26,238 nucleotides of DNA from a virus. Every line of letters begins with the position of its first letter. Positions within the stretch are counted from its first letter, which is position 1. Positions 182-25,441 of the stretch are shown one piece after another. The notes beneath the pieces were generated by a model. That model was not told the DNA's origin and searched no databases. It worked only from the letters and a program-made list of their open reading frames with translations. The position numbers and the translations under genes are program-made. The stretch covers positions 1 through 26,238 of the IMG/VR virus record IMGVR_UViG_3300021961_000548; one strand, given 5' to 3'.

Positions 182-516
182 CAGTCATATATTGAGTTAG
201 TTGTTAGTCCTGCCACTACCATCCTACCCTCTTCTATCATGGTCAAGCCAGTAGGGTCAAGGGTGTATGTGGGTGTCTGATAGACCTTGTATCTGTACTG
301 ACCTTTTACAAAGTCAATATCTGTAGGCTCATCAATAGTAAACAGGTTGAATCTTGAGGGATAAGGTGAAGTATCTGGTCCACTCCAATAGATTGGGTCG
401 GGTGCAGTGTTGAACTCATCCTCAAACTCAAATAAATAGAGTGCATTGGGTATTGTAGTGACCTCTGTAAGGGTCAACACAAAGCTATTCACTGAGTCCT
501 TCTCAAGATATATCAT
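181..516 (-). CDS. Conserved phage structural-region protein of unknown function (111 aa)
   Basis: The product begins MIYLEKDSVNSFVLTLTE and looks all-beta, with alternating hydrophobic residues and segments such as YLFEFEDEF and PIYWSGPD; there is no signal peptide or membrane segment. I recall similar small proteins with the MIYLEK..NTFVLTLTE opening in flavobacterial phages and prophages, but no function is established to my knowledge. It is the first gene after a terminator and is headed by one copy of the shared TACAATATAGGTATG element, so it likely leads the operon that continues with the portal (1-nt overlap). A head-tail connector or decoration role is possible from context only. Confidence 0.75.
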   Translation of the reverse strand: MIYLEKDSVNSFVLTLTEVTTIPNALYLFEFEDEFNTAPDPIYWSGPDTSPYPSRFNLFTIDEPTDIDFVKGQYRYKVYQTPTYTLDPTGLTMIEEGRMVVAGLTTNSIYD

Positions 517-528
517 ACCTATATTGTA
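514..528 (-). promoter_or_regulatory. Late start element, copy A (TACAATATAGGT + ATG)
   Basis: Minus strand reads TACAATATAGGTATG with the ATG being the start codon of the 111-aa gene. The upstream element 20 bp before TACAAT reads TAATT (544-548), the weakest of the five. It lies just downstream of a terminator, so a new transcript must start here or the 111-aa gene and portal would be poorly expressed. Confidence 0.65.
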
Positions 529-549
529 TCACCTGTTTATAATAATTAA

Positions 550-2113: not shown

Positions 2114-3091
2114 TTATTTGGTTTTTGAAAATTTTACAAATTCTTTGAATTTCTCATGTGCAGTCAATGCAACTGGTGCTGCTTCCTCCACAGTCTCAGC
2201 TGATAGACTTTCTTCCAGCTGGTTTTTTAAATCTGCTATCATAGCAACAAGTTGATTAACTTGCTCCTCAATAACTGGTGCTACTATAGCAAGTACAGCC
2301 TCAGCATCAAGGGCAGGGTCAACTGCCATTTCAACATCCTCTGCTGCTGCTGCAGACTCTTCTTCTTGTACAGCTTCCTCTGCATTGTCTACAGTGGTCT
2401 GAGCTTCTTCTTCAACAGCAGGATCTGCTGCCATTTCTGCCTCCATTTCGGTAGGCACATCTTTGATTTCAACAACTTCTCCATCTGCTATGACGTAGAT
2501 TTTGTCTTCCATCTGATGCTCTCCATCAGGTAACTTCATTGTATATTTATTTAAGTGTTCCGATAATTTCATACCTAAGAATCCCTCAATAGAGTACCCT
2601 ACTTGACCAGACTCAACCAGCTTATCATAGTACTCCTTATCAGTTACTTGGCTTGTCAACATCAATGTTCCCTTAGGTACTTCAATGCCGTATGTTGTGA
2701 ATGCCTTGTCATGTTGTGGGCTGTCCACTATCCATGCCTCAAGGATGTATGCAGGTACTTTCTCAGTAGCATCATGCTCAAGGTTAAAGATATCCTTGTT
2801 CTGTAGGTTCAGCATGAACTTGCTGTGGATAGCCTCAATCACTTCTGCAGTGAACTGTACATCATACTCACTACCATCCTCATCTTTCCTGTAGATCTCC
2901 ATAGGTATCATGGCAGGTGCTACAATACGCATCTTAACATCATCACTGAATGTCATCACAGCATGAGAATTGAATGCCATCCCTTTCACCTTAATTGCAG
3001 GCTTATTGGTGAAGGCTATCATCTCCATCCCAAGGTCCTCTCCATCGGAGTAGGCATCCTCTATTGTTATCTTGTAGCATGGTCTGTCCAT
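2114..3091 (-). CDS. XkdF-type prohead protease fused to an acidic scaffold-like tail
   Basis: 325 residues. Residues 1-180 match the XkdF-type phage serine protease pattern: MEMIAFTNKPAIKVKGMAF, then KMRIVAPAMIPMEIYRKDEDG, a conserved NLEHD motif, ILEAWIVDSPQHDKA, VPKGTLMLTSQV and VGYSIEGF. In this family the histidine of the EH motif and the serine of the GYSIEG motif are the likely catalytic pair. Residues 215-325 are of low complexity, rich in E and A (EEEAQTTVDNAEEAVQEEES), with a short coiled coil (VNQLVAMIADLKNQLEESL) and a basic C-terminus (HEKFKEFVKFSKTK), typical of a scaffold that binds capsid. The gene is headed by late start element B and runs straight into the capsid gene, so one polypeptide probably does both scaffolding and maturation cleavage. 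Confidence 0.8.
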   Translation of the reverse strand: MDRPCYKITIEDAYSDGEDLGMEMIAFTNKPAIKVKGMAFNSHAVMTFSDDVKMRIVAPAMIPMEIYRKDEDGSEYDVQFTAEVIEAIHSKFMLNLQNKDIFNLEHDATEKVPAYILEAWIVDSPQHDKAFTTYGIEVPKGTLMLTSQVTDKEYYDKLVESGQVGYSIEGFLGMKLSEHLNKYTMKLPDGEHQMEDKIYVIADGEVVEIKDVPTEMEAEMAADPAVEEEAQTTVDNAEEAVQEEESAAAAEDVEMAVDPALDAEAVLAIVAPVIEEQVNQLVAMIADLKNQLEESLSAETVEEAAPVALTAHEKFKEFVKFSKTK

Positions 3092-3103
3092 GCCTATATT
3101 GTA
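3089..3103 (-). promoter_or_regulatory. Late start element, copy B (TACAATATAGGC + ATG)
   Basis: Minus strand TACAATATAGGCATG, one base different from the other four copies, with the ATG of the protease-scaffold gene as its end. An upstream TAACAAAT begins 19 bp before TACAAT (minus strand, 3115-3122). It is the divergent partner of the plus-strand promoter box at 3112-3119. Confidence 0.7.
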
Positions 3104-3111
3104 GAAAGTGT

Positions 3112-3119
3112 TATATTTG
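3112..3119 (+). promoter_or_regulatory. Bacteroidota -7 box for the plus-strand pair
   Basis: TATATTTG matches the TAnnTTTG box and lies 16 bp before the ATG at 3136. I see no TTG or TTTG at the expected 17-23 bp upstream, so the match is half. The box overlaps the TAACAAAT element of the divergent late promoter, so the two may compete. Confidence 0.45.
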
Positions 3120-3135
3120 TTAAAAATTAATATTT

Positions 3136-3681
3136 ATGGTAACTATTTTAGGCAAGGAGATACCTAATCAACTGAGTGAGTTGACGGTGCAACAGTTCGA
3201 GGACATCACTACAATCCATGCAAGACAAGACATTGATGCTATTGAGAAACATATTGAGGTGTTCATGCTCTTAGGCATTGCAGAGGATGAGTGGGAGGAT
3301 GTATCTATTGAGGAGTTCAAGGAATGTGTTAAGCAGTTCAACAATCTTAGTGGTAAGCCAGAGCTACAGCCGTCCTTTGAGCACATGAACTACACCTACA
3401 CTGCCTTTGAGGAGCAGTTCAAGTTGTCAGTTAAGGACACTAAGCACATTGAGAAGGTGATGCACTCAAGACATAAGGGGTACATCTCAGAGATGTTGGC
3501 CATCCTGTTCAAACGTACTGACCTCACTAAGGCTGAGCACTATGCAGATGCACACATCAAGCACAAGGCAAAGATTATCAGAGAGCTCAAGGCAGAGTTA
3601 GCTATGCCATATTTGGTTGAGATAGGTCAGAAGTTAGCTAAGCAAATGCCTAAGGATGCACCTGCCGAAGTCGTGGAGTGA
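3136..3681 (+). CDS. Putative tail assembly chaperone, paralogue 1
   Basis: 181 residues, helical and acidic, no membrane segment. It begins MVTILGKEIPNQLSELTVQQFEDITTI. The region LSELTVQQFEDI...IEVFMLLGIAEDEWEDVSIEEF aligns position by position with SEIDVLQFKEI...IEILAALADIPSDELEDLDISEV of the next gene, so the two are paralogues from a tandem duplication. Small helical proteins of this type precede the tape measure gene in many Bacteroidota phages and are taken to be tail assembly chaperones; that role is inference here. With the next gene it is one of only two plus-strand genes in the window and sits in the middle of a minus-strand late block. It overlaps the next gene by 26 nt in the +1 frame. 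Confidence 0.7.
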   Translation: MVTILGKEIPNQLSELTVQQFEDITTIHARQDIDAIEKHIEVFMLLGIAEDEWEDVSIEEFKECVKQFNNLSGKPELQPSFEHMNYTYTAFEEQFKLSVKDTKHIEKVMHSRHKGYISEMLAILFKRTDLTKAEHYADAHIKHKAKIIRELKAELAMPYLVEIGQKLAKQMPKDAPAEVVE

Positions 3682-4387
3682 GATAGATGTACTGCAGTTC
3701 AAAGAGATTAGAGAGCTGTACACTATTGAGGAAGTATTCACCAGGGAGATAGAGATACTTGCCGCACTGGCAGACATCCCATCTGATGAGCTTGAAGACC
3801 TTGACATCAGTGAGGTGAGCACCATGTTAGCAGAAATCACGTTCATAAACTCTGAGCCATCAAAGAACTATAAGCACCTCATCGGAGAGTGGAAGGTCAA
3901 GCCACTGAGCAAGCTGACAATAGGTGAGTTCATTGACCTTGAGTATTTTTTTGCCAATGATTATGTCAAGCACATTGGTCACATTGCATCCATACTATAC
4001 CGTAAATACACCATCAATGAGTGGGGAGATGAGGTCATTGAGCCTTATAAGTACTCCCCATTTGATAGAGCTGAGCAGTGGGATGATTACTGTATCAATG
4101 ATATCTATGGCATCATACCTACATACCTCACTTTTAGAACTGAGTTCATGGATAAGTACGAGCTATTATTTCAATCAGATGATAGTGAGGATGATGAAGA
4201 TGATGGACCAAAGACAAGCCAAGATGTGAAGGCTGAGCAAGAGCAGAAGAGTGCCATCAAATGGTCATGGGAGAGACTACTGTACAGCCTGTGTCAAGAG
4301 GACTTGACTAAGTTTGACCAGGTGACAGATATGCCGCTTGTCTTGACCTTTAATATGCTGGCTATGAAGAAAGAGTTAAATCTATAG
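3656..4387 (+). CDS. Putative tail assembly chaperone, paralogue 2
   Basis: 243 residues. The start ATG at 3656 is inside the end of paralogue 1, in the +1 frame, with AAGG just before it. The frame has a stop (TAG, 3635-3637) seven codons upstream, and the N-terminus aligns with that of paralogue 1, so an independent, coupled start is more likely than a frameshift fusion. After the shared domain there is an IGEFIDLEYFFANDY...ASILYRKY region, an acidic linker (residues about 180-205, SDDSEDDEDDG), and a C-terminal SWERLLYSLCQEDLTKFDQV helix pair ending LAMKKELNL. The last part resembles tail chaperone ends that contact the tape measure. Its stop overlaps the 3-prime end of the convergent 4382-4819 gene by 6 bases with no terminator between. 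Confidence 0.65.
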   Translation: MHLPKSWSEIDVLQFKEIRELYTIEEVFTREIEILAALADIPSDELEDLDISEVSTMLAEITFINSEPSKNYKHLIGEWKVKPLSKLTIGEFIDLEYFFANDYVKHIGHIASILYRKYTINEWGDEVIEPYKYSPFDRAEQWDDYCINDIYGIIPTYLTFRTEFMDKYELLFQSDDSEDDEDDGPKTSQDVKAEQEQKSAIKWSWERLLYSLCQEDLTKFDQVTDMPLVLTFNMLAMKKELNL

Positions 4388-5647: not shown

Positions 5648-6264
5648 ACCCTTGTCGCGTTCAATGTTACTACTGCAGCAGTGTTTACTGTCACTGTTAT
5701 CTTACTTCCAGATGCTATTGTTGCACCACCACCTGCAGTGTAGGTTGCTCCATCATCCTTGAGTGTTGTTGTGGGTGCGTTAAGTATGTTGGTGACTGAG
5801 TCAATCTTAAGGTTGTACGGTGCATAGAAGTCTACTGTCAAGGCATCAATCAGCTCAACAGTGTACTTTGGCTTGAGCACTATTACATTCTGGTTCTTAA
5901 TCACGAATATCTCATCACCTGTATTGTGGTCTTTGACGGCAAAGCTGTGATATGTGGCATCACTACGTACTTCAAAGGTGATGTTATCAGTGTTGTTCAT
6001 GTGACTGTGCACATTGAACTGGCCCATTGTTTGAAACAATAGCACCTTATTATCACCTGTCAATGTCCTATCACCTGTCAGTGTGCCGTCAGTGTTGTAG
6101 ATGTTCACACTACCACCACTTGAAGCAGCATCAATAATCTCCTGCCCTGTGATAGAGTAAGTACCGTATCCAGTGCCAGTCAATACACTCACCTCAAGTA
6201 AGTCAGTAGCTTCAAGGTTAGCCCCTTTCGGGGTCATCTGTGATATCTTTTGTCTGCTTGCCAT
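5644..6264 (-). CDS. Tail fibre / tail appendage protein
   Basis: 206 residues beginning MASRQKISQMTPKGANLEATDLLEV, an N-terminus I recognise from fibre-type proteins of Bacteroidota phages. It then has the NIYNTDGTLTGDRTLTGDNK phrase, which recurs in tail fibre shafts of many phages and marks the start of a beta-structured region. The C-terminal part is rich in T, V and A with a glycine turn (AGGGATIASGSKITV). It is headed by late start element C and coupled to the DUF1566-like gene, so the two probably build the distal fibre. Confidence 0.7.
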   Translation of the reverse strand: MASRQKISQMTPKGANLEATDLLEVSVLTGTGYGTYSITGQEIIDAASSGGSVNIYNTDGTLTGDRTLTGDNKVLLFQTMGQFNVHSHMNNTDNITFEVRSDATYHSFAVKDHNTGDEIFVIKNQNVIVLKPKYTVELIDALTVDFYAPYNLKIDSVTNILNAPTTTLKDDGATYTAGGGATIASGSKITVTVNTAAVVTLNATRV

Positions 6265-6276
6265 ACCTATATTGTA
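6262..6276 (-). promoter_or_regulatory. Late start element, copy C (TACAATATAGGT + ATG)
   Basis: Minus strand TACAATATAGGTATG, ending in the start codon of the fibre gene. It begins immediately after the TAG stop (6277-6279) of the 150-aa gene, so the element alone fills the whole intergenic gap. TAACAAAT starts 20 bp before TACAAT (minus strand, 6289-6296) inside the coding end of the upstream gene. Confidence 0.7.
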
Positions 6277-6729
6277 CTATCCTGGCAGATTTGTTATAAG
6301 TGGTACTTGACAGTCAGTCCAGTTACTCATATCCACCTCTATGCTCATCATCCACCCTGCTGCATAGTCAAGCAGTTGGTTGTTCATAGGGGTTAGTGAT
6401 GGTGTTCCTAAGATGTCAAAGGAGTAGTCATCACTAAATGTGAAGTAGTTGAACAAGTCAACCAGTATCTGATGGCAGTCCGATAGTATTACAGTGATGT
6501 TGGCTCTGTCCTTCTGGATGATGTCAAAGCAATATATCTCAAGGCTGATTGTGTTTGTGTTCTCACTTGGTAAGGCAGTCACAGGAGCTATGAATACCAA
6601 AGGATACTTCTCATCCTTGGTGGCAAAGTTAGTTAACTGTTCAGTGAAGTCAGTACCTATCTTTTTAACCTGTAGGTGATCGTTGTAGAATGCCTCAATG
6701 TGGTTGATTAGTGCTTGATAACTTGTCAT
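6277..6729 (-). CDS. Conserved phage protein, tail region (150 aa)
   Basis: Begins MTSYQALINHIEAFYNDHLQVKK and continues FTEQLTNFATKDEKYPLVFIAP, then SLEIYCFDIIQKDRANI and a C-terminal AAGWMMSIEVDMSNWTDCQVP. I recognise this set of motifs as a recurring family found next to tape measure genes in Bacteroidota phages. Length and the hydrophobic core strands resemble tail terminator or head-tail joining proteins, but that function is inference. The start overlaps the tape measure stop by 4 nt, so it is translated with it. Confidence 0.75.
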   Translation of the reverse strand: MTSYQALINHIEAFYNDHLQVKKIGTDFTEQLTNFATKDEKYPLVFIAPVTALPSENTNTISLEIYCFDIIQKDRANITVILSDCHQILVDLFNYFTFSDDYSFDILGTPSLTPMNNQLLDYAAGWMMSIEVDMSNWTDCQVPLITNLPG

Positions 6730-12105: not shown

Positions 12106-13591
12106 TGATGATGTCGTTATTAGATAACCTAACTTGTAGCTGTTGCCTTATCAGATGCTTGTTCCGAACCCTCTGTATGTCGAAGGTGTTATTCAGTACA
12201 TTACAGCTCACATACTCAGTGCTCTCTGGGATGTGTATGATACAGCCATCCTCATCATAGAGTGGTATCCCATCCTCTGTGATGTGGTACACTACGTTCT
12301 TGATGTAAGTCTGTGGTGAGGTCACTAACTGCTGGAAGTAGATACCTTCATTCTCACTCATCCAGTTGGTGTTGAGGTCTATGGTCTTAGTCACTTGGGT
12401 GTTGTAATTAACAGTGCCTTGTTCATAAGTCTTGTACTTCCACTCTGAGCCAGTTACATATCCTGGCACATCCTTGTTGTAGGTCTCCCTCTTGATGTTG
12501 AGCTTCTCATAGCTCTTAAGCTGGAAGGCAAAGCTACTCCATGAACCCATCCTATCTAAGAACACGATGTGACTCTCAGAGATCAATACCCTCCTGTCTA
12601 TGTTGATGGCATACTTAATACTCTTCTGAGGGTTGAATATACCGTCACTGTAGTACACTCCATAGCTCTTAGTAGTTGGCTTGACAAGTGGAGCAGTGCC
12701 ACTTACTAAGGTCAGTGAGCCGTAGTTGTTAGGACCAACTGCCACACCCTTGATGTAGTCACCTCCTGTAATATCCTTGTAGAACACTGAGCCGTCATCA
12801 CTGGTGAAGTACAACCTTTTGTTGACAGTGATGTTGTCACCTCGTAGGTTCAGCCATAAGTCCTGCCCGGGGGTGCAACTGAATGATAGAGGCTGGTCAG
12901 TCAACCATCCCTTAGTAACACCGTCAAGCTCATAGTCAGTCTCATCCCAGTACGGCATCTCAAGCCATGGTTGCACACCATTGAACACATACTTGTCAAG
13001 GGTGCTTATGATGTCAAGGTCTATGGTCTTGCGGTTGTCAGCATACTTGACAGTGCCATTGATGGTGTCATCAGTCACATCTGCCCATAGTGCGTTAATC
13101 GTGAAGGAGGTAGTACCTGTGATTGCAGTCACAGTGTGCAGTCCTTCCACCGATGGGTTAGCTACACCTCCATCTGCCTGAGTGATGTTCACCTGGTCCC
13201 CCACTTGGAAGGGATGAGTCGCTGTTATCTCAACACTCCCTCCATTGTCAGTTAGTGATGCAGTATAGCTTAGGTCAAAGATATACTCTTCACCTATCCT
13301 TAGGTCATAGTTATAGTAGCTGTTGGTGGCATCATAGAAGGTGGTCACTGTGGGGTTGAAGTCAAAGGTTACCATGTTACTCAAGAGCTTACTCAAGTCT
13401 TGCTCACCATAGCCAGTGCCGAATGTTGGCAGTGCCTTGTAGTATCCTATCCTTGTTGCAGTGCCTGCCTCAAACACCTCAAAGATATATCTGAACCCTG
13501 CCTTGTTTACATTGGTTGAGTCCACTATGAACTTGACCTCATTGTACGCAGGAGTAAAGTCTTGAGGCTGTGCTATGAATGTTGTTGCCAT
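12098..13591 (-). CDS. Tail/baseplate protein (497 aa)
   Basis: Begins MATTFIAQPQDFTPAYNEVK, a start pattern (QPxDFxPAYNxxxF) that I recall from tail proteins of Bacteroidota phages. Residues 1-120 look like a beta sandwich with IGYYKALPTFGTGYGEQDLS. Residues about 115-180 resemble a short inserted domain (HPFQVGDQVNITQADG...GLHTVTAITGTTSFTI), of the kind found in tail proteins with carbohydrate- or protein-binding modules. The remainder is beta-rich, with SWSSFAFQLKSYEKLNIKRE and a charged C-terminus. Headed by late start element D. A distal tail or baseplate role is inferred from the next gene. Confidence 0.75.
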   Translation of the reverse strand: MATTFIAQPQDFTPAYNEVKFIVDSTNVNKAGFRYIFEVFEAGTATRIGYYKALPTFGTGYGEQDLSKLLSNMVTFDFNPTVTTFYDATNSYYNYDLRIGEEYIFDLSYTASLTDNGGSVEITATHPFQVGDQVNITQADGGVANPSVEGLHTVTAITGTTSFTINALWADVTDDTINGTVKYADNRKTIDLDIISTLDKYVFNGVQPWLEMPYWDETDYELDGVTKGWLTDQPLSFSCTPGQDLWLNLRGDNITVNKRLYFTSDDGSVFYKDITGGDYIKGVAVGPNNYGSLTLVSGTAPLVKPTTKSYGVYYSDGIFNPQKSIKYAINIDRRVLISESHIVFLDRMGSWSSFAFQLKSYEKLNIKRETYNKDVPGYVTGSEWKYKTYEQGTVNYNTQVTKTIDLNTNWMSENEGIYFQQLVTSPQTYIKNVVYHITEDGIPLYDEDGCIIHIPESTEYVSCNVLNNTFDIQRVRNKHLIRQQLQVRLSNNDIING

Positions 13592-13603
13592 ACCTATATT
13601 GTA
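13589..13603 (-). promoter_or_regulatory. Late start element, copy D (TACAATATAGGT + ATG)
   Basis: Minus strand TACAATATAGGTATG, ending in the start codon of the 497-aa tail gene. TAACA begins exactly 20 bp upstream of TACAAT (13619-13623) and coincides with the TAA stop of the terminase gene. The gap between genes is only 29 bp. Confidence 0.7.
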
Positions 13604-13620
13604 TCTTGAAGTGAATCCTG

Positions 13621-14772
13621 TTAGAAGGCTAAGTAACTGTCATCAGTGTAGTACTCCTGCTTGATGTAGGTAGCTGCATATCGGATGGCATCCATGGCAT
13701 CATCCCATAACTTGACAGGCTCATCTGTGATGGTATCCCCTATCTTTTTCCACTTGTAATTCTCGTACTCCTTCTTGAGTGCGGGGTGGTCTTCACATAT
13801 CACGCCAAAGGTCTTGATGTTATCTATCCCTTTCTTCACCACCTTGTTGGCATTCTCAATGTAGTACCCTGCCCTATCTATCTCAGCAATGGTCTCTGGT
13901 CTTGAGTAGTCAGCCAGTATGTTCACACTCTTGTCAATGCCTAACTGGTCCATACGAGCAATGAGGTCAGTGGTGGTGAGGTAGCTCTCATATATCACAG
14001 GCTCAATGTAGATGTCCTTATCTCTCCAGTACACCCTCACCAATGCAGTAGGGTGATTGTATCCGAAGTCAAGACCATAGACAAAGGAGGTGAACTTAGC
14101 AGGCCTATGCTTGACAAAGGACCAGTTACTGTAGATGTTGCTCTTAGAGATAGCCTTCTCCCCAAGTGCGTATATCTGGTACTGTGCCTCATCTGTCCTC
14201 TTCAAGTCCTCTATCTGTCGCTTGATGCTATCTGGTAGGAACGGGTTATCCTTGTAGGTTGACTTGATAAGTACACTCTCATCTGGTGGCAGTTCATACA
14301 GCCATGAGTTAGATTCCGATGGGTTGTAGTCAAAGATTAGCTTGCCCTCTGTCCTCATGTTCAGCTGAGTAAAGTCATCATAGTACAGCTCATTAGCCTC
14401 ATTGCACCATGCAAGGTCTCTCTTCCTACCTCGTATCTTTTGCTCATCATCCACTGAGAAGAATTCCACAATAGAGCCATTGTCAAAGGTGTAGATGTGC
14501 TCAGACTTATTGTGCTTGGTCACCTCGTAGATATCCAAGTCCTTCATGATCTCAAGGAAGTCTCTCATCACTGTAGCTCTGAGTGCCGGGAAGGTCTTGC
14601 GTATGATGCTCACCACCTTGCCTCTGTTCTGTAGGCAGTAGACTATTATCAGCTGGCAAAGGCTGTAGGTCTTGCTTGACCTTGAGCCACCTTCATTGAT
14701 TATGAATCTATGGTCTGGGCTTGTCAGTGCCTCGTAGTTCCTCTCGAAGATGTGTGTTGCTTTTATTTCCAT
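13621..14772 (-). CDS. terL: Terminase large subunit
   Basis: 383 residues, shorter than average but complete. Walker A is EGGSRSSKT (27-35), Walker B with catalytic glutamate is DLAWCNEANEL (119-129), and the coupling region FDYNPSESNSWLY follows. The C-terminal RNase H-like nuclease has D235 in YGLDFGYNHPTA, D288 in ILADYSRPE and D357/D361 in DDAMDAIRYA. This is the PBSX-like type of phage terminase. It packages the genome and cuts concatemers at the portal. The gene follows terS after a 50-bp gap with a weak palindrome and no start element of its own. Confidence 0.95.
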   Translation of the reverse strand: MEIKATHIFERNYEALTSPDHRFIINEGGSRSSKTYSLCQLIIVYCLQNRGKVVSIIRKTFPALRATVMRDFLEIMKDLDIYEVTKHNKSEHIYTFDNGSIVEFFSVDDEQKIRGRKRDLAWCNEANELYYDDFTQLNMRTEGKLIFDYNPSESNSWLYELPPDESVLIKSTYKDNPFLPDSIKRQIEDLKRTDEAQYQIYALGEKAISKSNIYSNWSFVKHRPAKFTSFVYGLDFGYNHPTALVRVYWRDKDIYIEPVIYESYLTTTDLIARMDQLGIDKSVNILADYSRPETIAEIDRAGYYIENANKVVKKGIDNIKTFGVICEDHPALKKEYENYKWKKIGDTITDEPVKLWDDAMDAIRYAATYIKQEYYTDDSYLAF

Positions 14773-14822: not shown

Positions 14823-15242
14823 TTACTTTACTATAGTAACCTTAATATCAGAGATAGACTGACCATTGCTGGTAACATCTACAGTATCAGTCACACCTGT
14901 TACCCTTGCTGTAAGGTTAGGTGCTTTATATTTTCCTGTCATAGTTCCACTCACATGATCATGAGTCCATTCATTTCGTATATGCGTTGTGACTCCCAGA
15001 TATGCGTTGTACTCCTTATCTTGATTATCCAGATATTGCTTAACTCCATGCCCATAATTCTCAAATACCCAAGCCTCAAATCCCCATCTTGTCAATGGTT
15101 TTTGAACAGGTAAATAAAGTACTTCACCTGTTTTATTATTAGCTACAGGTAACAAGTCATAAATCCCTTGTGCATAAGCCTTATACTTATCCCACATGGC
15201 CTTTAAGTCCTCTGGAGTCTCTATGTATTTATGCTTGGCCAT
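14823..15242 (-). CDS. terS: Terminase small subunit
   Basis: 139 residues from the ATG at 15242, beginning MAKHKYIETPEDLKAMWDKY. A longer form from 15299 would add 19 residues but would overlap the upstream gene by 71 nt; the shorter start leaves a 14-nt overlap and an AAGG in front. The ETPEDLKAMWDKYKAY opening, the PVQKPLTRWGFEAWVFENYG segment, and the NLTARVTGVTDTVDV region match a small-terminase family (DNA-packaging gp3 type) in Bacteroidota phages. It recognises the packaging site and stimulates TerL. Position directly before terL supports the call. Confidence 0.75.
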   Translation of the reverse strand: MAKHKYIETPEDLKAMWDKYKAYAQGIYDLLPVANNKTGEVLYLPVQKPLTRWGFEAWVFENYGHGVKQYLDNQDKEYNAYLGVTTHIRNEWTHDHVSGTMTGKYKAPNLTARVTGVTDTVDVTSNGQSISDIKVTIVK

Positions 15243-15501
15243 TAGCCTTAGGTTTGCGTTTCTTTTTAGGTTTCGGAGTAGCCTCTGGTATTGGTCCATC
15301 TACAGCCTTGTACTCTATCACAGTGACCTCTGGTACAGTGGTAGTCACCACCTCTTCAAAGATATGCTTGAGCCCGATAGACTGGTAGTACTTAACCTTG
15401 TTCATGTCAATCTTATCCACCACTATTGTGCGAGTTCCTAAGATGCGATCATACACCTTCACAGTAGTTCCGATGTATTCTTGTTTAATTTTGTAAGTCA
15501 T
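15229..15501 (-). CDS. Small basic-tailed phage protein (90 aa)
   Basis: Begins MTYKIKQEYIGTTVKVYDRI. The N-terminal 45 residues resemble a small SH3- or OB-like beta fold, with MNKVKYYQSIGLKHIFEE, a phrase I have seen in small phage proteins upstream of terminases. The C-terminus (PKPKKKRKPKANGQA) is strongly basic and may bind DNA. The gene overlaps the two-TM gene by 17 nt and terS by 14 nt. No function is known to me. Confidence 0.7.
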   Translation of the reverse strand: MTYKIKQEYIGTTVKVYDRILGTRTIVVDKIDMNKVKYYQSIGLKHIFEEVVTTTVPEVTVIEYKAVDGPIPEATPKPKKKRKPKANGQA

Positions 15502-15649
15502 TTTGTTGTATTATAATGAATATTAGATATGCTCCTATTGTTGCACCTGCGAACTTGAACAGCAGATACACATTCTCATTGAACAGTGCCAGCACCACAC
15601 CCCAAGCAAGGATGTAAGTGATTAAGCCTATAATGTCAACACTCTTCAT
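15485..15649 (-). CDS. Small protein with two membrane segments; first late gene
   Basis: 54 residues, beginning MKSVDIIGLITYILAWGVVL. Two hydrophobic segments are seen, residues about 5-22 and 30-48, separated by a short polar loop (NENVY), with QQNDLQN at the end. This is the size and layout of a class II-like holin, but nothing else points to lysis, so a membrane protein of unknown role is the safe call. The ATG is the end of late start element E, which lies inside the coding end of the sigma-like gene. The conserved element in front of this start is the main reason to believe the ORF. Confidence 0.65.
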   Translation of the reverse strand: MKSVDIIGLITYILAWGVVLALFNENVYLLFKFAGATIGAYLIFIIIQQNDLQN

Positions 15650-16178
15650 ACCTATATTGTATCTCTTTAATATTTTGTTTAATTTCTCGTATCAGAAAGT
15701 AAGCCGATGTGATGTTGATGTTGAAGTACTTAGCCAGTGCCGTTTGAGTTGAATGTCCTTTGTCATAGTATGCCTCAAATATAAGTCTTTTTATCCTGTC
15801 ATCCAATGAGCTCCGATATATCTCAACCATTGCTTTCTTAAAGTTATGCCGTTCCTCTATCTCGAGCTTATGCTCTATCTCACTGGGGTCATCTATGCAA
15901 TCACCCAAGTACTCCTGTGACCTATAGATGTCATCTCGCTTGCTCTTTGACCCTTGAGTCCAGATGAGCTCATACTTAATAGTGTTCAGTAGGTAGCTCT
16001 TAGCCTTGTCTTGAGTCATGTCTGGTATGTTGACTTTCACACAGTGCAAGTAAGCGTTGTTGATCACTGCATGAGCCTCTATTGAGGATGGTATGTTCAG
16101 TCGCTTGAGGAAGTGCTTAGTATATCTGAGCACCTCATCATAGTTCCTACTGATATATTGGTCAAGTATTAGCTTCAT
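15636..16178 (-). CDS. Putative divergent sigma factor-like regulator
   Basis: 180 residues from the ATG at 16178, beginning MKLILDQYISRNYDEVLRYT. A start at 16244 is possible but would overlap the previous gene by 83 nt. Residues about 25-70 have the layout of sigma region 2 (helix with AHAVINNAYLHCVKVNI, then AKSYLLNTIKYELIW), and residues about 125-175 look like a region 4 helix-turn-helix (LIFEAYYDKGHSTQTALAKYFNINITSAYFLIREI). Between them is an acidic linker. Phages of Bacteroidota often carry such weakly conserved sigma-70-like proteins. The gene ends inside the first late start element, so it is the last middle gene before the late blocks and is the obvious candidate to recognise those elements. 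The sigma role is inference. Confidence 0.55.
   Translation of the reverse strand: MKLILDQYISRNYDEVLRYTKHFLKRLNIPSSIEAHAVINNAYLHCVKVNIPDMTQDKAKSYLLNTIKYELIWTQGSKSKRDDIYRSQEYLGDCIDDPSEIEHKLEIEERHNFKKAMVEIYRSSLDDRIKRLIFEAYYDKGHSTQTALAKYFNINITSAYFLIREIKQNIKEIQYRYEEC
15647..15661 (-). promoter_or_regulatory. Late start element, copy E (TACAATATAGGT + ATG)
   Basis: Minus strand TACAATATAGGTATG, wholly inside the last codons of the sigma-like gene (which read IQYRYE there). TAAACA begins 20 bp upstream of TACAAT (15676-15681). It heads the two-TM, 90-aa, terS, terL block. Confidence 0.7.
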
Positions 16179-16365
16179 ACCAGGTGAGAAAGTCTTTGTA
16201 CCACACCTTCCTGCGTACTCCAGAGCAAAAGCACTCTTTATCACGTATGCCAGTCACTCTGTTCTTCACCCTCTGCAGTTGTACCAGTGAGCTCTTCCTC
16301 ATGGTCTGCTCCTCTGGTAGGTTGAGGATGGTCTCTATGAGTTGTATATCAGTTTGTTCAAGCAT
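16162..16365 (-). CDS. Small conserved phage protein upstream of the sigma-like gene (67 aa)
   Basis: Begins MLEQTDIQLIETILNLPEEQ at 16365. A longer ORF exists from 16449, but its extra residues overlap the membrane protein gene almost fully. Motif RVKNRVTGIRDKECFCSGVR followed by KVWYKDFLTWYE is one I recall from small proteins in flavobacterial phages, next to sigma-like genes. It has a CxC pair but no full zinc motif. The stop overlaps the sigma-like start by 17 nt, so the two are probably translated together and may act in the same process. Function unknown. Confidence 0.65.
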   Translation of the reverse strand: MLEQTDIQLIETILNLPEEQTMRKSSLVQLQRVKNRVTGIRDKECFCSGVRRKVWYKDFLTWYEANT

Positions 16366-16568
16366 ACGGCTGTGAGTGATGTGGCACAAGCCACAGTGAA
16401 TGATTGTGAGTAGGCCAAGGTTGACCAGAATGATAGACACTTCCAGCAACCTAAGGCAGTGTGTAGCCAGTCAGGTAGTATTAGTCGGGTGTCAAGGTAG
16501 TGTTGAATGGGCTCGAAGTGTGTGAACCACCATGAGACTACTAATGGAGTTAGGTATGTGATTATCAT
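16335..16568 (-). CDS. Small membrane protein with CWKCLSFW motif (77 aa)
   Basis: Hydrophobic segments lie at residues about 3-15 and 50-70, with the conserved phrase LGCWKCLSFWSTL between. A C-x-x-C-x-S-F-W motif beside a membrane helix is seen in small phage and bacterial membrane proteins resembling DUF1360; the assignment is tentative. The gene overlaps the next by 31 nt. Upstream the minus strand reads TACTATATTTACACC before the ATG, close to a TAnnTTTG box except for the last base, so a promoter may lie there. Confidence 0.6.
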   Translation of the reverse strand: MIITYLTPLVVSWWFTHFEPIQHYLDTRLILPDWLHTALGCWKCLSFWSTLAYSQSFTVACATSLTAVCLNKLIYNS

Positions 16569-17055: not shown

Positions 17056-17139
17056 TCAGTTGTTAATCTTATCAAGTATTGATTGAGGGGTGTGGTACTG
17101 CCCTTCAATGTAGATCATTATTTGTACTAAGTAGTTCAT
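17056..17139 (-). CDS. Micro-ORF, MNYL type, 27 aa
   Basis: Begins MNYLVQIMIYIEG, then QYHTPQSILDKINN. Its ATG overlaps the TGA of the HTH gene by ATGA. The first 12 bases (ATGAACTACTTA) are identical to those of the 39-aa micro-ORF at 21078-21197, and both proteins share MNYL and Y-x-T-P-x-x-I-x-D-K-I. That repeat pattern, plus the coupled start, is the reason to keep it. It is followed by the block terminator. Function unknown. Confidence 0.5.
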   Translation of the reverse strand: MNYLVQIMIYIEGQYHTPQSILDKINN

Positions 17140-17369
17140 TTCAACAAGTAATTAAAAACCTTATCATAGAACTTACCCCTTGCCTCACCCCCTTGAAGGA
17201 AGCGGTGCAGTGTTGCGTTCACTACACCAATATCCTCTGCCATGTGTACAGCCCTGTTTCTGCCGTTTAGCTTGTCTCTAAGCTCACATCTCATCCATTC
17301 GGTTAGTGTTTGACCTTCTTGGAGATAAACGGTCTTAGAACGTTTGCTTTCTGCCATATATTTTGACAT
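17136..17369 (-). CDS. Small helix-turn-helix DNA-binding protein
   Basis: 77 residues, possibly starting at the second Met (MAESKRSK). Residues about 33-62 read RDKLNGRNRAVHMAEDIGVV then NATLHRFLQGG, and the end FYDKVFNYL is typical of small Cro/CI-like phage regulators, in which recognition helix residues are the N-A-T-L-H-R-F part. It probably represses or times early transcription. The stop overlaps the following micro-ORF by ATGA. Confidence 0.65.
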   Translation of the reverse strand: MSKYMAESKRSKTVYLQEGQTLTEWMRCELRDKLNGRNRAVHMAEDIGVVNATLHRFLQGGEARGKFYDKVFNYLLK

Positions 17370-18717: not shown

Positions 18718-19278
18718 TCACTTATTATTTATTGTTTCTAAATACGCTTTATAAGCATTGTAAATTGCGTGTATTTGCGTGAATTCTGGTGTATTTCTGG
18801 GTGTTTGTATTACTTCATCAGATGCAAAGAATTCATCCCAGTCTTCAATACTTCTTTTCTTACATCCAATATGAATCATGTTATCTGTAATTCCATGATT
18901 CCACTTGCAATACATTGGAATTTTATCAGCCCCTGTAAGGTCAGCCTCTCTAAGGTTAGCCTCTCTAAGGTTAGCCTCTCTAAGGTTAGCCTCTCTAAGG
19001 TTAGCCCCTGTGAGGTTAGCCCATGTAAGGTTAGCCCCTCTAAGGTCAGCCTCTCTAAGGTCAGCCTCTCTAAGGTTAGCCTCTCTAAGGTTAGCCTCTC
19101 TAAGGTTAGCCTCTCTAAGGTTAGCCTCTCTAAGGTTAGCCCATGTAAGGTCAGCCCATGTAAGGTTAGCCCCTCTAAGGTCAGCCTCTCTAAGGTTAGC
19201 TCTAACTCCATTTTTATCATTATTCAACCACAATTTATGTAGTCTTAATGTTTCATCTAATTTGCTTTGCTCCATCAC
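18718..19278 (-). CDS. Pentapeptide repeat protein
   Basis: 186 residues. Residues 27-116 are 18 consecutive pentapeptides of A(N/D)LRE, A(N/D)LRG and A(N/D)LTW type, plus ADKIP, enough for about 4.5 coils of the right-handed quadrilateral beta helix. The C-terminal 65 residues ([20 protein letters not shown], then [12 protein letters not shown]) match a tail domain that I recall in many phage pentapeptide proteins. Some family members mimic DNA and bind gyrase; whether this one does is unknown. The ATG overlaps the exonuclease stop by 4 nt, placing it in the recombination operon. Confidence 0.9.
18931..19200. repeat. 15-bp tandem DNA repeat encoding the pentapeptides
   Basis: Eighteen 15-bp units of the type ggttagcctctctaa. 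Units 2-3 and 11-12 both encode [10 protein letters not shown], so a block of nine units (135 bp) seems duplicated. High nucleotide identity shows recent expansion. Confidence 0.9.
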
Positions 19279-21852: not shown

Positions 21853-24079
21853 TGTCTATCTTTTTAACCCATTTATAAATACATTCTCTTGATACATCTA
21901 ATAGATCAGCAACACTGACCTTGTTTAATTTTTTGTTAGCTTGATACATCACCTTGAACTTGTCAAATTTACTCTTACCAGGATCGTTTTTTATTACATC
22001 CTTGAGCTCCTTTTTTTCTGCTGATTCTATCTTAACCTTTTTACTCATGTTTATGAAGTAGTGAGACAGTTTCTCAGCTCTCAACATAGAAGGCTCCATT
22101 AGAGTGCCGTAAAAATACTCTTCTGGTTGATCGTATGACCACAAAGAATTGATTAACATAGCGAACCTTGGAATGTAACTCTTCTGTTTTGGTAGCATTG
22201 ACTTCATATACTCATTCTCAGCATCACTGTTTTGCATCTCCGTAATCTGATTAAAGATTCGAGTCCATTGTTGCTTAGATGCCTTAGTCATTCTCACTAC
22301 TATAGGCTCAATGTCATCCTCTACGTTGTACTTAACCCACTTCATTTTTACCTCTTCAAAAAACTTGACTATATAGGCATCATACCATACTGATGTTGAT
22401 ACATCCATCTCATTCTCATTATAAGATTCCACAAACAAGTCAGGAAATGATATCAACATCCTATCTGTAAAGCCATTCTCTTTGTTCTCTTCTGTATTAA
22501 AGGCATCAAATATTGTCGGTTGTATACCACCAAGCACTGGTATATGAGGCTTGTCAACAAATGAACTCTTAGCGGTCTTTCTATTCATGCTTACAGCTTT
22601 ACCACTCCAGCATGATAACCAAAATTCAAGGTCTGAACCTGCTCTGTACTTGTTCATATCCTTAAACCATCCTGCCAGCTCATCCTTAAACACACCTACT
22701 GAGTTCTTATTCTCTTCATGTAGGTCAACCAATGCCTCAAGTGTGATGTCATTCACTATAAACTGAGTCTTTTTAGGCTTTCTTACCTCTTCTGAGTGCT
22801 CCTTCTCTTGCTTGTCTTTTTTCTCATACTCAACCCACTTAGCATATTCCTTAATATAGCGTTTGATGTGAGTATTATTTACCGTTTCAAGGGGTCTGAT
22901 TATCTGGTTGATGCTGGGAGTCTTACCAATACCTGCCTTACCTACTAATGATATCCACAGTGTACCTGTCTCAAGCCATCCACTCTTGACCTCTACCTTC
23001 AATGAGTTACCTACTATCACTGACAGCATCCACATGAATGCACACCCCATGTAGTCTATTGACAGCCCTAATGTGTGAGCAGATTCTAAGATAAAGTGCT
23101 GTATATTCTCTGGATAGATGTCGATAGGAAAGGTTAACTTGCTCACATCTACCTTAGGCTTGTCATCCAGTTCTATCTGTGGCACCCTACGAGAGCCATA
23201 TCCTTTGTCATAGAGATCGTTGGCAGCTTGTTTCATATCACCAAAGTGATATTTATGGGCATAGATAGCAAATGGACTGAGTAACTTCTCAGCTGGGTAT
23301 TGTGTGCCAGTACTAAACAGATACATACATCCACTATCCTTGTACACATATCCTGAATGTGGTGACTCAGCTCCATGTCTGCGTATGATGTAGCTCTTAT
23401 TCGTGTTCCTTACAATGGTGAACTCATCACTAATCAGCTCAATAGTGTTGTTTTTTGAGTTGTAGTCATCCCATGGAGTGACCTCATCCTCATTAGTTGA
23501 GTATTGTTTCTTAGTTGGCTTGTCAAGGTTGACCTCTTCAATGTAGTTGTAGGTCTTAGATATGGACCAAAGTATCTCTCTCTCCTCTTCTGTGATGTAC
23601 TTGATATCATGGTACTCATTCTCACCATGAAAGTTGCCGTACAAAATAAACTGACCACCCACTCCCCTGGTCTCAATGATAGCCTCCTTCATGCCTTGCA
23701 ACTTAGCTATCTTGGTGTTGCCTTGTACCTTTGTGCACTTGTATATAATGTGATATCCATCTCTCATAGTCTTAGCTATGACAAACTTATAATCAAACTC
23801 AGATATGTTATCTCGAAGGAAGGAGATGTATTCATTCCACCAGGCTAATTTTTCTGGGAGTGATGAGAATACTTTGAGATCTATATCAATGCACTCAATG
23901 TCATTAACACCTGACCGGCATCCATAGAGAGGTGCATCCATCTGGTCAATCTCATCATGAGTCTTGCATGGTTTGGAGGTCCATTTGCTCTCTATTGGTT
24001 TCTTGGTAGCATCACAAGGAATGACACTATAACCCAATGAGGCAAGTTTTTTTAAATAATCTTTTGTTATCATACTCAT
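21830..24079 (-). CDS. Primase-polymerase with DUF3987 helicase-like domain
   Basis: 749 residues. The N-terminal Prim-Pol domain has CIDIDLK (63-69) with the two catalytic aspartates, GYHIIYK (108-114), and ETRGVGGQFILYG (136-148). Residues about 320-640 match DUF3987, with Walker A GKAGIGKT (380-387), followed by RPLETV and a helical insertion. The C-terminus has a helix-turn-helix, VSVADLLDVSRECIYKWVKK. One protein thus primes and probably unwinds the origin. It follows the homing endonuclease with a 4-nt overlap and lies downstream of the iteron region, so it shares the promoter at 24671-24698. Confidence 0.85.
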   Translation of the reverse strand: MSMITKDYLKKLASLGYSVIPCDATKKPIESKWTSKPCKTHDEIDQMDAPLYGCRSGVNDIECIDIDLKVFSSLPEKLAWWNEYISFLRDNISEFDYKFVIAKTMRDGYHIIYKCTKVQGNTKIAKLQGMKEAIIETRGVGGQFILYGNFHGENEYHDIKYITEEEREILWSISKTYNYIEEVNLDKPTKKQYSTNEDEVTPWDDYNSKNNTIELISDEFTIVRNTNKSYIIRRHGAESPHSGYVYKDSGCMYLFSTGTQYPAEKLLSPFAIYAHKYHFGDMKQAANDLYDKGYGSRRVPQIELDDKPKVDVSKLTFPIDIYPENIQHFILESAHTLGLSIDYMGCAFMWMLSVIVGNSLKVEVKSGWLETGTLWISLVGKAGIGKTPSINQIIRPLETVNNTHIKRYIKEYAKWVEYEKKDKQEKEHSEEVRKPKKTQFIVNDITLEALVDLHEENKNSVGVFKDELAGWFKDMNKYRAGSDLEFWLSCWSGKAVSMNRKTAKSSFVDKPHIPVLGGIQPTIFDAFNTEENKENGFTDRMLISFPDLFVESYNENEMDVSTSVWYDAYIVKFFEEVKMKWVKYNVEDDIEPIVVRMTKASKQQWTRIFNQITEMQNSDAENEYMKSMLPKQKSYIPRFAMLINSLWSYDQPEEYFYGTLMEPSMLRAEKLSHYFINMSKKVKIESAEKKELKDVIKNDPGKSKFDKFKVMYQANKKLNKVSVADLLDVSRECIYKWVKKIDNDNHQRG

Positions 24080-24558
24080 AGCATTGCTAAACTATTCTGA
24101 TATGCTTGACTCGCTTCTTGTTCATTTACAAAATAACCTAAATGTTTTAGTTTTCCATTTATCTTAATTTGTGCCACCCATTTTTCTGCTAATTTGTGCC
24201 AACAAACTCCTTTATATTTACTTGAATATTTACCTTGAGTTTTATAACAATTTTCTCTATTAGTTAGAACTTGTAAATTATCTAATCTATTGTCTAATTT
24301 ATTATCGTTGATATGGTCAACAACATATATATTACCATTTGGGATATGATTTAAAAATGATTGAGCTAATAATTGATGTACCAGTTTAGTAGTTGCTATT
24401 TTATTTTTATATAATCTACATTGCCAATAACCTTTTTTATTTATAACAGGACTTAAAATTTTTTCTTTATTACATTTCAAACTTTTTACCCTACCTAAAT
24501 TAGATACTTCATATAATCCTTCATAACCAATTACATCCTTCCAAATTTCTTTTTTCAT
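24076..24558 (-). CDS. NUMOD4-HNH-AP2 homing endonuclease, free-standing
   Basis: 160 residues with three known modules: NUMOD4 (IWKDVIGYEGLYEVSNLGRV, 5-24), HNH with D81-H82 (VDHINDNKLDNRLDNLQVLT), and AP2 (YKGVCWHKLAEKWVAQIKIN, about 115-134, ending EASQAYQNSL). AP2 and NUMOD4 give DNA contacts, HNH cuts. The gene is AT-rich and sits between the RNA leader and the primase gene, overlapping the primase start by 4 nt. Homing endonucleases often sit beside replication genes and spread by cutting cognate sites in related phages. Confidence 0.9.
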   Translation of the reverse strand: MKKEIWKDVIGYEGLYEVSNLGRVKSLKCNKEKILSPVINKKGYWQCRLYKNKIATTKLVHQLLAQSFLNHIPNGNIYVVDHINDNKLDNRLDNLQVLTNRENCYKTQGKYSSKYKGVCWHKLAEKWVAQIKINGKLKHLGYFVNEQEASQAYQNSLAML

Positions 24559-24732: not shown

Positions 24733-25000
24733 ACTGTCAACTTACTGTCAACTAATTTGTAAAAGTTGACACTCGAGTGTGTACGGAGTTGACAGTAAAA
24801 ATTCAGTATTTACAAGGGATACAGAGGTTTTTTAGTGTAAACTTACACTTTTTTTAAAAAAGTACATTTTTGATGAGGTAAAAAAATATTGAAATTTCAA
24901 GTGTAAACTACTGTCAACTGTACACTTTTGATATAAGTCACTGATATATAGTATTTTAACTGTGTAAACTACTGTCAACTACTGTCAACTTAAGTTTACA
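24733..25000. repeat. Iteron cluster, candidate replication origin
   Basis: ACTGTCAACT occurs five times direct (24733, 24744, 24910, 24971, 24981) and once inverted (24787), with a partial inverted copy at 24764. GTGTAAACT occurs at 24835, 24901 and 24962, with an inverted agtttaca at 24993; the 19-mer GTGTAAACTACTGTCAACT is present twice, 61 bp apart. There are also a 12-bp palindrome ACACTCGAGTGT (24769-24780), an inverted repeat AGTGTAAacTTACACT (24834-24849), and an A/T-rich stretch about 24840-24900. It lies between a DnaA-like gene and primase. No gene is seen in 24559-25078. A repressor operator array is the alternative to an origin. Confidence 0.6.
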
Positions 25001-25078: not shown

Positions 25079-25441
25079 TCAATAATATTCATTATTTGCA
25101 ATCATTTCTTTAATTATTTTTAAATCAGTTGTGTTGTTGCACTTCAAGATGTCATCAAAGATGTTTCTTTTTTCCTCTACCACTGTCTCAAACAGTTCTA
25201 TCTCATTCTCAATGTATGATAGGTAGATCTTGTCATTGTGTTCCATAAACTGGTTGTGTACACCAATAGAGTGCATGATGGTGGCATGGTTTCTATTGAA
25301 TAGGTCTGCTATCTTTTGCAGAGTCCATCCCTGCTTGCGTAACAGGTGGCAAATGAATGCCCTTCTGTACACATATTCTCTGGCTCTGCTTGGCTTAGCC
25401 AGTTCATGCTCTTTGATGTGTTCAATTATTTCTTCTATCAT
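25079..25441 (-). CDS. DnaA domain IV-like DNA-binding protein
   Basis: 120 residues. Residues 20-62 match the DnaA C-terminal domain: REYVYRRAFICHLLRKQGWT, then LQKIADLFNRNHATIMHSIG, in which NHATIMHS (51-58) corresponds to the DHTTVLHA signature that reads the DnaA box. AAA+ and domain III are missing, so the protein can bind DNA but cannot load helicase by itself. The C-terminal half is acidic and helical. It lies just upstream of the iteron cluster, so it is the likely origin- or operator-binding protein. AGGAA lies about 9 bases before the ATG. Such truncated DnaA-like proteins are common in phages of Bacteroidota. Confidence 0.75.
   Translation of the reverse strand: MIEEIIEHIKEHELAKPSRAREYVYRRAFICHLLRKQGWTLQKIADLFNRNHATIMHSIGVHNQFMEHNDKIYLSYIENEIELFETVVEEKRNIFDDILKCNNTTDLKIIKEMIANNEYY

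Follow-up and report, generated by a model that had tools for sequence, protein, structure and literature searches.

A sigma-like gene of an uncultured freshwater phage family with a predicted bipartite late promoter in its last codons

The 26,238-base virus record analysed here over its full length (the window) has its late genes on the minus strand and contains a small, previously unrecognised gene of an uncultured freshwater phage family, the product of which is sigma-like and, as judged from predicted structure, most probably an ECF-type sigma factor. It is accompanied by a set of bipartite late promoters, one of which is written into the last codons of the sigma-like gene itself. That the sigma-like protein reads these promoters is the best-supported reading, and is what we infer from the evidence set out below.

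The gene is a minus-strand open reading frame (ORF) that begins with an ATG at 16178 and ends with a TGA stop at 15638-15636 (Table 1). In IMG/VR, approximately 300 homologous loci can be aligned from this start codon, and close relatives all share that methionine. The relatives sort into Subfamilies 1a (which includes the window), 1b, 2, L085, 3, and 4, with identities down to about 45%. All of these loci were retrieved via the protein and not via the promoter element, so that the counts of conservation given here are free of ascertainment bias; loci found by the element pattern were excluded from the counts, with the exception of a few that the protein search also recovered. Occurrence in hundreds of contigs from many metagenomes rules out a sequencing or assembly artefact. 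No relative was found among GenBank phages, and none in a conserved-stretch scan of GTDB genomes. Two small minus-strand ORFs adjoin the gene: 16335-16568, just upstream, is membrane-like with cysteines and is kept beside the sigma-like gene in every subfamily, and 16162-16449 overlaps its start; both are candidates for a co-regulator or an anti-sigma factor.

An earlier sequence-only reading had proposed that the protein combines a region 2-like and a region 4-like part, and this architecture is supported both by the computed fold and by the NCBIfam matches of the relatives. Two AlphaFold models, run with 23 and then with 37 homologues, are all-helical (mean pLDDT 78 and 80) and have the ECF-type layout of domain 2, linker, and domain 4, with no domain 3, in an arrangement that is not confidently predicted (pTM 0.41). 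Compared with known structures by Foldseek, both models match sigma factors almost exclusively among the best PDB entries, with the ECF type first: sigma factors, mostly of the ECF type, make up nearly all of the top 50 (probability up to 1.0, E-values of about 1e-3 at best), and 9n9q_C, SigL, sigmaE, SigH, AlgU, and CnrH lead the list. Whole-chain TM scores are low (0.3-0.4), which follows from the uncertain domain arrangement; domain 4, the C-terminal half, superposes alone on region 4 of sigmaE in complex with its -35 DNA, with a TM of about 0.62 and an rmsd of about 2.5 angstrom. Among the predicted viral structures of BFVD the top match is 39% identical and probably a member of the same family, and the next are annotated phage sigma-70/ECF proteins.

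Profile searches give a more graded picture. When the 37 relatives are scanned singly, 14 match the NCBIfam sigma70-ECF family (TIGR02937; best E 1.3e-5), 12 the RinA family (TIGR01636; best E 0.001), and six the Bacteroidetes ECF family (TIGR02985; best E 3.5e-4). The window protein, unlike those 14 relatives, has no sigma70-ECF match, and its sole NCBIfam match is to TIGR01636 (E 0.027; 14.6 bits against a cut-off of 31.9), in the C-terminal half only. Its Pfam, PHROG, and PDB-sequence searches gave no match above any cut-off, with neither Sigma70_r2 nor Sigma70_r4_2 found; PDB sequence matches such as VapC or P-element transposase are at chance level and were discarded as noise. Aligned by hhalign to eleven ECF sigmas, the profile is collinear along its full length, but the match is not significant (P 0.05), so the sigma call rests on structure together with the NCBIfam matches of the relatives. 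Because no profile match exceeds a curated cut-off, we file the protein as sigma-like, acting like an ECF sigma, and not as a certified member of that family.

Table 1. Positions of the sigma-like gene, its predicted domains, and the late promoters and adjoining features of the window.
Feature	Position	Strand	Details
Sigma-like gene, 180 aa	15636..16178	-	AlphaFold models; Foldseek PDB and BFVD; NCBIfam sigma70-ECF in 14/37 relatives
Predicted domain 2 of sigma-like protein, helices	residues 2-75		AlphaFold
Flexible, disordered linker	residues 76-97		AlphaFold
Predicted domain 4 with helix-turn-helix	residues 98-179		AlphaFold
Upstream box of promoter E (AAACA)	15676..15680	-	within codons AAA CAA (K167-Q168); fixed spacing
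Element E (TACAATATAGGT+ATG), downstream box	15647..15661	-	encodes IQYRY; holds start codon of next ORF
Overlap of sigma-like gene and next ORF, 14 nt	15636..15649	-	
Hydrophobic 54-aa ORF	15485..15649	-	starts at ATG of element E, 15649-15647; absent in group 1b
Terminase large subunit, downstream of promoter E	13621..14772	-	Pfam Terminase_3 2e-31; PHROG 7.6e-40
Late promoter after terminase	13589..13623	-	TAACA 13619-13623; CAATATAGG 13593-13601; ATG 13589-13591
Late promoter	6262..6296	-	TAACA 6292-6296; CAATATAGG 6266-6274; ATG 6262-6264
Late promoter, protease/capsid unit	3089..3122	-	TAACA 3118-3122; CAATATAGG 3093-3101; ATG 3089-3091
Late promoter of ORF 181-516	514..548	-	weak upstream box TAATT 544-548; CAATATAGG 518-526; ATG 514-516

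The sigma-like gene is the last before the late blocks, as the sequence-only reading had it and as the gene order of the window bears out. Five copies of TACAATATAGGT followed by ATG, one with C replacing the last T, are present in the window, and each ATG starts an ORF; four of them sit before late genes and the fifth, element E, lies inside the end of the sigma-like gene. The word TACAATATAGGTATG was found at 514-528, 3089-3103 (with GGC), 6262-6276, 13589-13603, and 15647-15661, always on the minus strand and with no more than one mismatch. If up to three mismatches are allowed there are seven element sites, against a chance mean of 1.6, and seven were reached in none of 100 shuffles; the pattern read backwards has no site in the window.

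The element as first described makes up just one half of the signal, the other being a further box, (A/T)AACA, that lies upstream; the whole is a bipartite promoter in which (A/T)AACA is followed by YAATATAGG 21-22 nt on, start to start. Four of the five window copies have the upstream box at this distance, with TAATT in its place at the copy at 514-528, and the window holds four occurrences of the bipartite pattern where a first-order Markov model predicts 0.085. Among the relatives, 225 unique sites lie close to the start of an ORF, and 180 of these have the upstream box at 20-22 nt, versus 9 of 118 short-word matches elsewhere; in Subfamily 2 it is at -21 in 33 of 39 non-E sites, regardless of the distance to the ATG (mostly 10-22 nt). 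De novo k-mer counts upstream of late ORFs return the element as the top word in 1a, 1b, 2, and L085 (TACAATATAGGT, TAATATAGGT, and TTTAATATAGTT), and Subfamilies 3 and 4 carry TAATATTGTT and TAATATAGTT after the terminase gene; in 1a, 1b, 2, L085, 3, and 4 alike, the Y of YAATATAG comes 21-22 nt after (A/T)AACA. The promoter is present in every subfamily that carries the sigma-like gene, and after the terminase both boxes are kept although unrelated genes follow in the different subfamilies (homologues of ORF12098, homologues of ORF5644, or a third gene). A scan of the window for the sigma-70 consensus found no more sites than in shuffles. Two boxes at fixed spacing with AAC in the upstream one make this an ECF-type arrangement—AAC in the upstream box is a hallmark of ECF -35 elements—and would pair the promoter with the sigma-like protein.

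All five window copies end exactly at a start codon, and Shine-Dalgarno sites are absent from the phage (2 of 34 starts; 2.9 when shuffled), as would suit a translation start signal of the late genes. Conservation of the element, however, is independent of the start codon. Group 1b keeps E letter-perfect with no ATG directly behind it, the next start lying beyond the stop codon of the sigma-like gene, and this argues against a translation signal; these groups, which lack TACAATATAGG+ATG, might be read as having lost E, a reading rejected since their DNA retains E intact and lacks just the ATG. The ATG of the post-terminase gene has moved 11-15 nt away in part of Subfamily 2, with the 21-nt spacing of the two boxes unchanged. 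Only 5 of about 35 genes in the window carry the element, and all five copies have G at -3, versus the A that is favoured in Flavobacterium, where most mRNAs have leaders (PMC6847099); G is expected there if the element is a promoter, since those bases would then be promoter and not leader. We regard a translation signal as extremely improbable.

That element E sits among the last codons of the gene, as the sequence-only reading described, is borne out, and the placement is conserved at the level of DNA. Read in the frame of the gene, E is ATA CAA TAT AGG TAT GAA, or IQYRYE, and among 173 distinct genes TACAATATAGGTAT is exact in 128 and has one change in six, with the L085-group variant TTCAATATAGTT in a further 12. 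Codon usage was analysed in 87 dereplicated genes of 1a, 1b, and 2, over 76 columns with a mostly conserved amino acid. The codon is invariant in only four columns, K167 (AAA), Q174 (CAA), Y175 (TAT), and Y177 (TAT), and all four are within the two boxes, the upstream box being coded by K167-Q168 and the downstream box by Q174-Y177; R176 is AGG in 83 of the 87 genes, and Q168 is nearly invariant as CAA. With six of the 76 columns in the boxes, the hypergeometric probability that all four invariant ones fall there is about 1e-5, a value that ignores the kinship of the sequences and serves as a guide only. The in-gene copy in Subfamilies 2 and L085 has C where the non-coding copies have T; as T would create an in-frame TAA stop, the gene holds the promoter as near to consensus as the reading frame permits. 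In Subfamilies 3 and 4, which have no in-gene promoter, the protein tail is ..RIKLENEN or ..LRDEN; because lineages without the in-gene box are also without the IQYRY peptide, the peptide is dispensable for the protein. The best explanation of this double constraint on the codons is that they are frozen by the promoter, and that the C-terminal IQYRY would be largely its by-product.

A further suggestion of the sequence-only reading, that the overlap links the end of the middle operon to the start of late expression, is weakened by a sister clade (support 98/92) with the same sigma-like gene and the same promoter after the terminase, and with no element in the sigma-like gene. One branch (98/92) of an unrooted tree built without the protein tail splits the lineages with and without E, and E in the sigma-like gene thus appears to have been gained or lost once. 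The window has at least two further late promoters that overlap the gene before them: the TAACA of one overlaps the stop codon of the large terminase gene, and that of another sits within the end of ORF 6277-6729. The overlap at E is accounted for in the same way by ordinary compaction of the genome, and we regard it as a compact arrangement that is dispensable in the sister clade. It is doubtful that promoter E acts as a self-limiting switch, in which sigma-bound polymerase at E blocks middle-operon polymerases from finishing the sigma gene; if it did, the factor would switch off its own production and, at the very same site, set leaderless late transcription going.

A host among the Bacteroidota is probable, since the nearest terminases belong to phages of Parabacteroides, Bacteroides, and Flavobacterium and no Shine-Dalgarno signal is present. 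The promoter of the Flavobacterium primary sigma is TTTG/TANNTTTG (PMC6847099). None of the five late elements contains TANNTTTG; the sites read YAATATAGG, and lacking a match to TTTG/TANNTTTG they are unlikely to be read by the host primary sigma. Host-type TANNTTTG sites are only mildly above chance in the window (33 versus 23), and a few of them stand before early genes.

The sigma-like protein could instead be a late activator of the RinA/Ltr type, with a sigma-region-4-like helix-turn-helix, that binds the AACA box and helps the host holoenzyme without being a true sigma. The TIGR01636 matches of the relatives point that way, as does the position of the gene, which as the last of the early cluster and directly upstream of a late promoter follows the published Ltr arrangement (PMC13123087). 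We consider this unlikely, however: the model also has a three-helix N-terminal domain, ECF sigma structures and not single helix-turn-helix proteins lead the matches, and the two boxes, at a fixed spacing, are equally conserved, the downstream one lacking the host -7 motif TANNTTTG, so that the host primary sigma would find nothing to read. It is very unlikely that the promoters have a different reader, be it a phage RNA polymerase that escaped notice, a further phage regulator, or an alternative sigma of the host, and that the sigma-like protein serves some other purpose. The contig is a fragment of 26 kb with no estimate of completeness, and further small DNA-binding proteins are encoded at 17136-17369 and 25079-25441; against this, the window ORFs that were scanned include no recognisable RNA polymerase gene, the two-box geometry is of sigma type, and each subfamily with the sigma-like gene also has the promoter.

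The two-box geometry suits a two-domain sigma, which makes the sigma-like protein the best candidate reader. To this extent the proposal of the sequence-only reading that it reads the five elements stands, and initiation at the elements is the part that we infer. The protein would be made from the early/middle cluster, and on the predicted structure it is likely that it binds the core RNA polymerase of the host and guides this enzyme to the five bipartite late promoters; domain 4 would read (A/T)AACA, and domain 2 would read and melt YAATATAGG. The five promoters would fire the terminase, neck/tail, tail, protease and capsid, and ORF 181 units late. Promoter E, which lies within the final 14 codons of the sigma gene, would be the first of the five and start the terminase unit. 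At most promoters the start codon follows the first base of the downstream box at a distance of 10 nt, so close that the late mRNAs are probably leaderless or nearly so, and ECF geometry would place the start site at or beside the A of the ATG in most units. In bacteria, TA-like boxes roughly 12 bp ahead of the start codon have served as a mark of leaderless genes (PMC3160421).

Several other features of the window were noted. A terminator-like hairpin at 550-575 directly precedes the late promoter of ORF 181-516. At 3112-3119 on the plus strand a host-type -7 box, TATATTTG, stands before two plus-strand genes (3136-4387), back to back with the late promoter on the opposite strand. The minus-strand gene in the small-terminase position (14823-15299) has 29-41% identity between subfamilies versus 80-95% for the adjacent large terminase, an unusual contrast. 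Among the genes of the early cluster is a pentapeptide-repeat protein (18718-19278, minus strand; Pfam 2e-36) coded by 15-bp tandem repeats, and a homing-endonuclease-like gene with NUMOD4, HNH, and AP2 parts (24076-24558, minus strand) is directly upstream of the primase-polymerase gene. The 120-aa protein at 25079-25441 (minus strand) has a stand-alone DnaA domain IV (Bac_DnaA_C, 4.9e-10) without the ATPase part and is a possible phage replication-origin binder; adjoining its gene, a 19-nt direct repeat (GTGTAAACTACTGTCAACT) occurs three times between genes at 24901-24990, and these repeats could be origin iterons.

Phage sigma factors with short AT-rich late promoters are already known, as are late regulators encoded beside their target promoter (PMC13123087). 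In phages phiEco32 and 7-11, a phage-encoded sigma distantly related to the sigma-A family is associated with the late promoter TAATGTATA (PMC4331800). In layout the window phage is alike in kind: a phage sigma or sigma-like protein, a short AT-rich late promoter before structural units, and host promoters for early genes. It differs in its clear upstream box, in having most promoters 10 nt from the start codon, in its probable Bacteroidota host, and in the promoter inside the sigma-like gene. The RinA/Ltr proteins of staphylococcal phages share the weak profile matches and a location beside the terminase genes, but are basic activators of about 130 aa that act on a host-type promoter (PMC13123087), whereas the window protein has about 180 aa, a predicted second domain, and a non-host promoter. 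ECF sigmas (TIGR02937, TIGR02985) resemble it in domains 2 and 4, in fold matches, and in the AAC-containing upstream box; the window protein differs in being encoded by a phage, in passing no curated cut-off, and in that no anti-sigma gene was identified. New are the protein family, its promoter, and the writing of that promoter into codons of the sigma-like gene.

The sigma-like gene has no cultured or annotated relative within the collections searched, and these findings identify for an abundant freshwater phage family a probable late-transcription factor and a precise late promoter, from which transcription start sites are predicted to within a few bases. With a promoter in the codons of the gene for its probable reader, the end of the protein and the promoter constrain each other. 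The two together are a short, probably host-orthogonal candidate promoter-factor pair for Bacteroidota.
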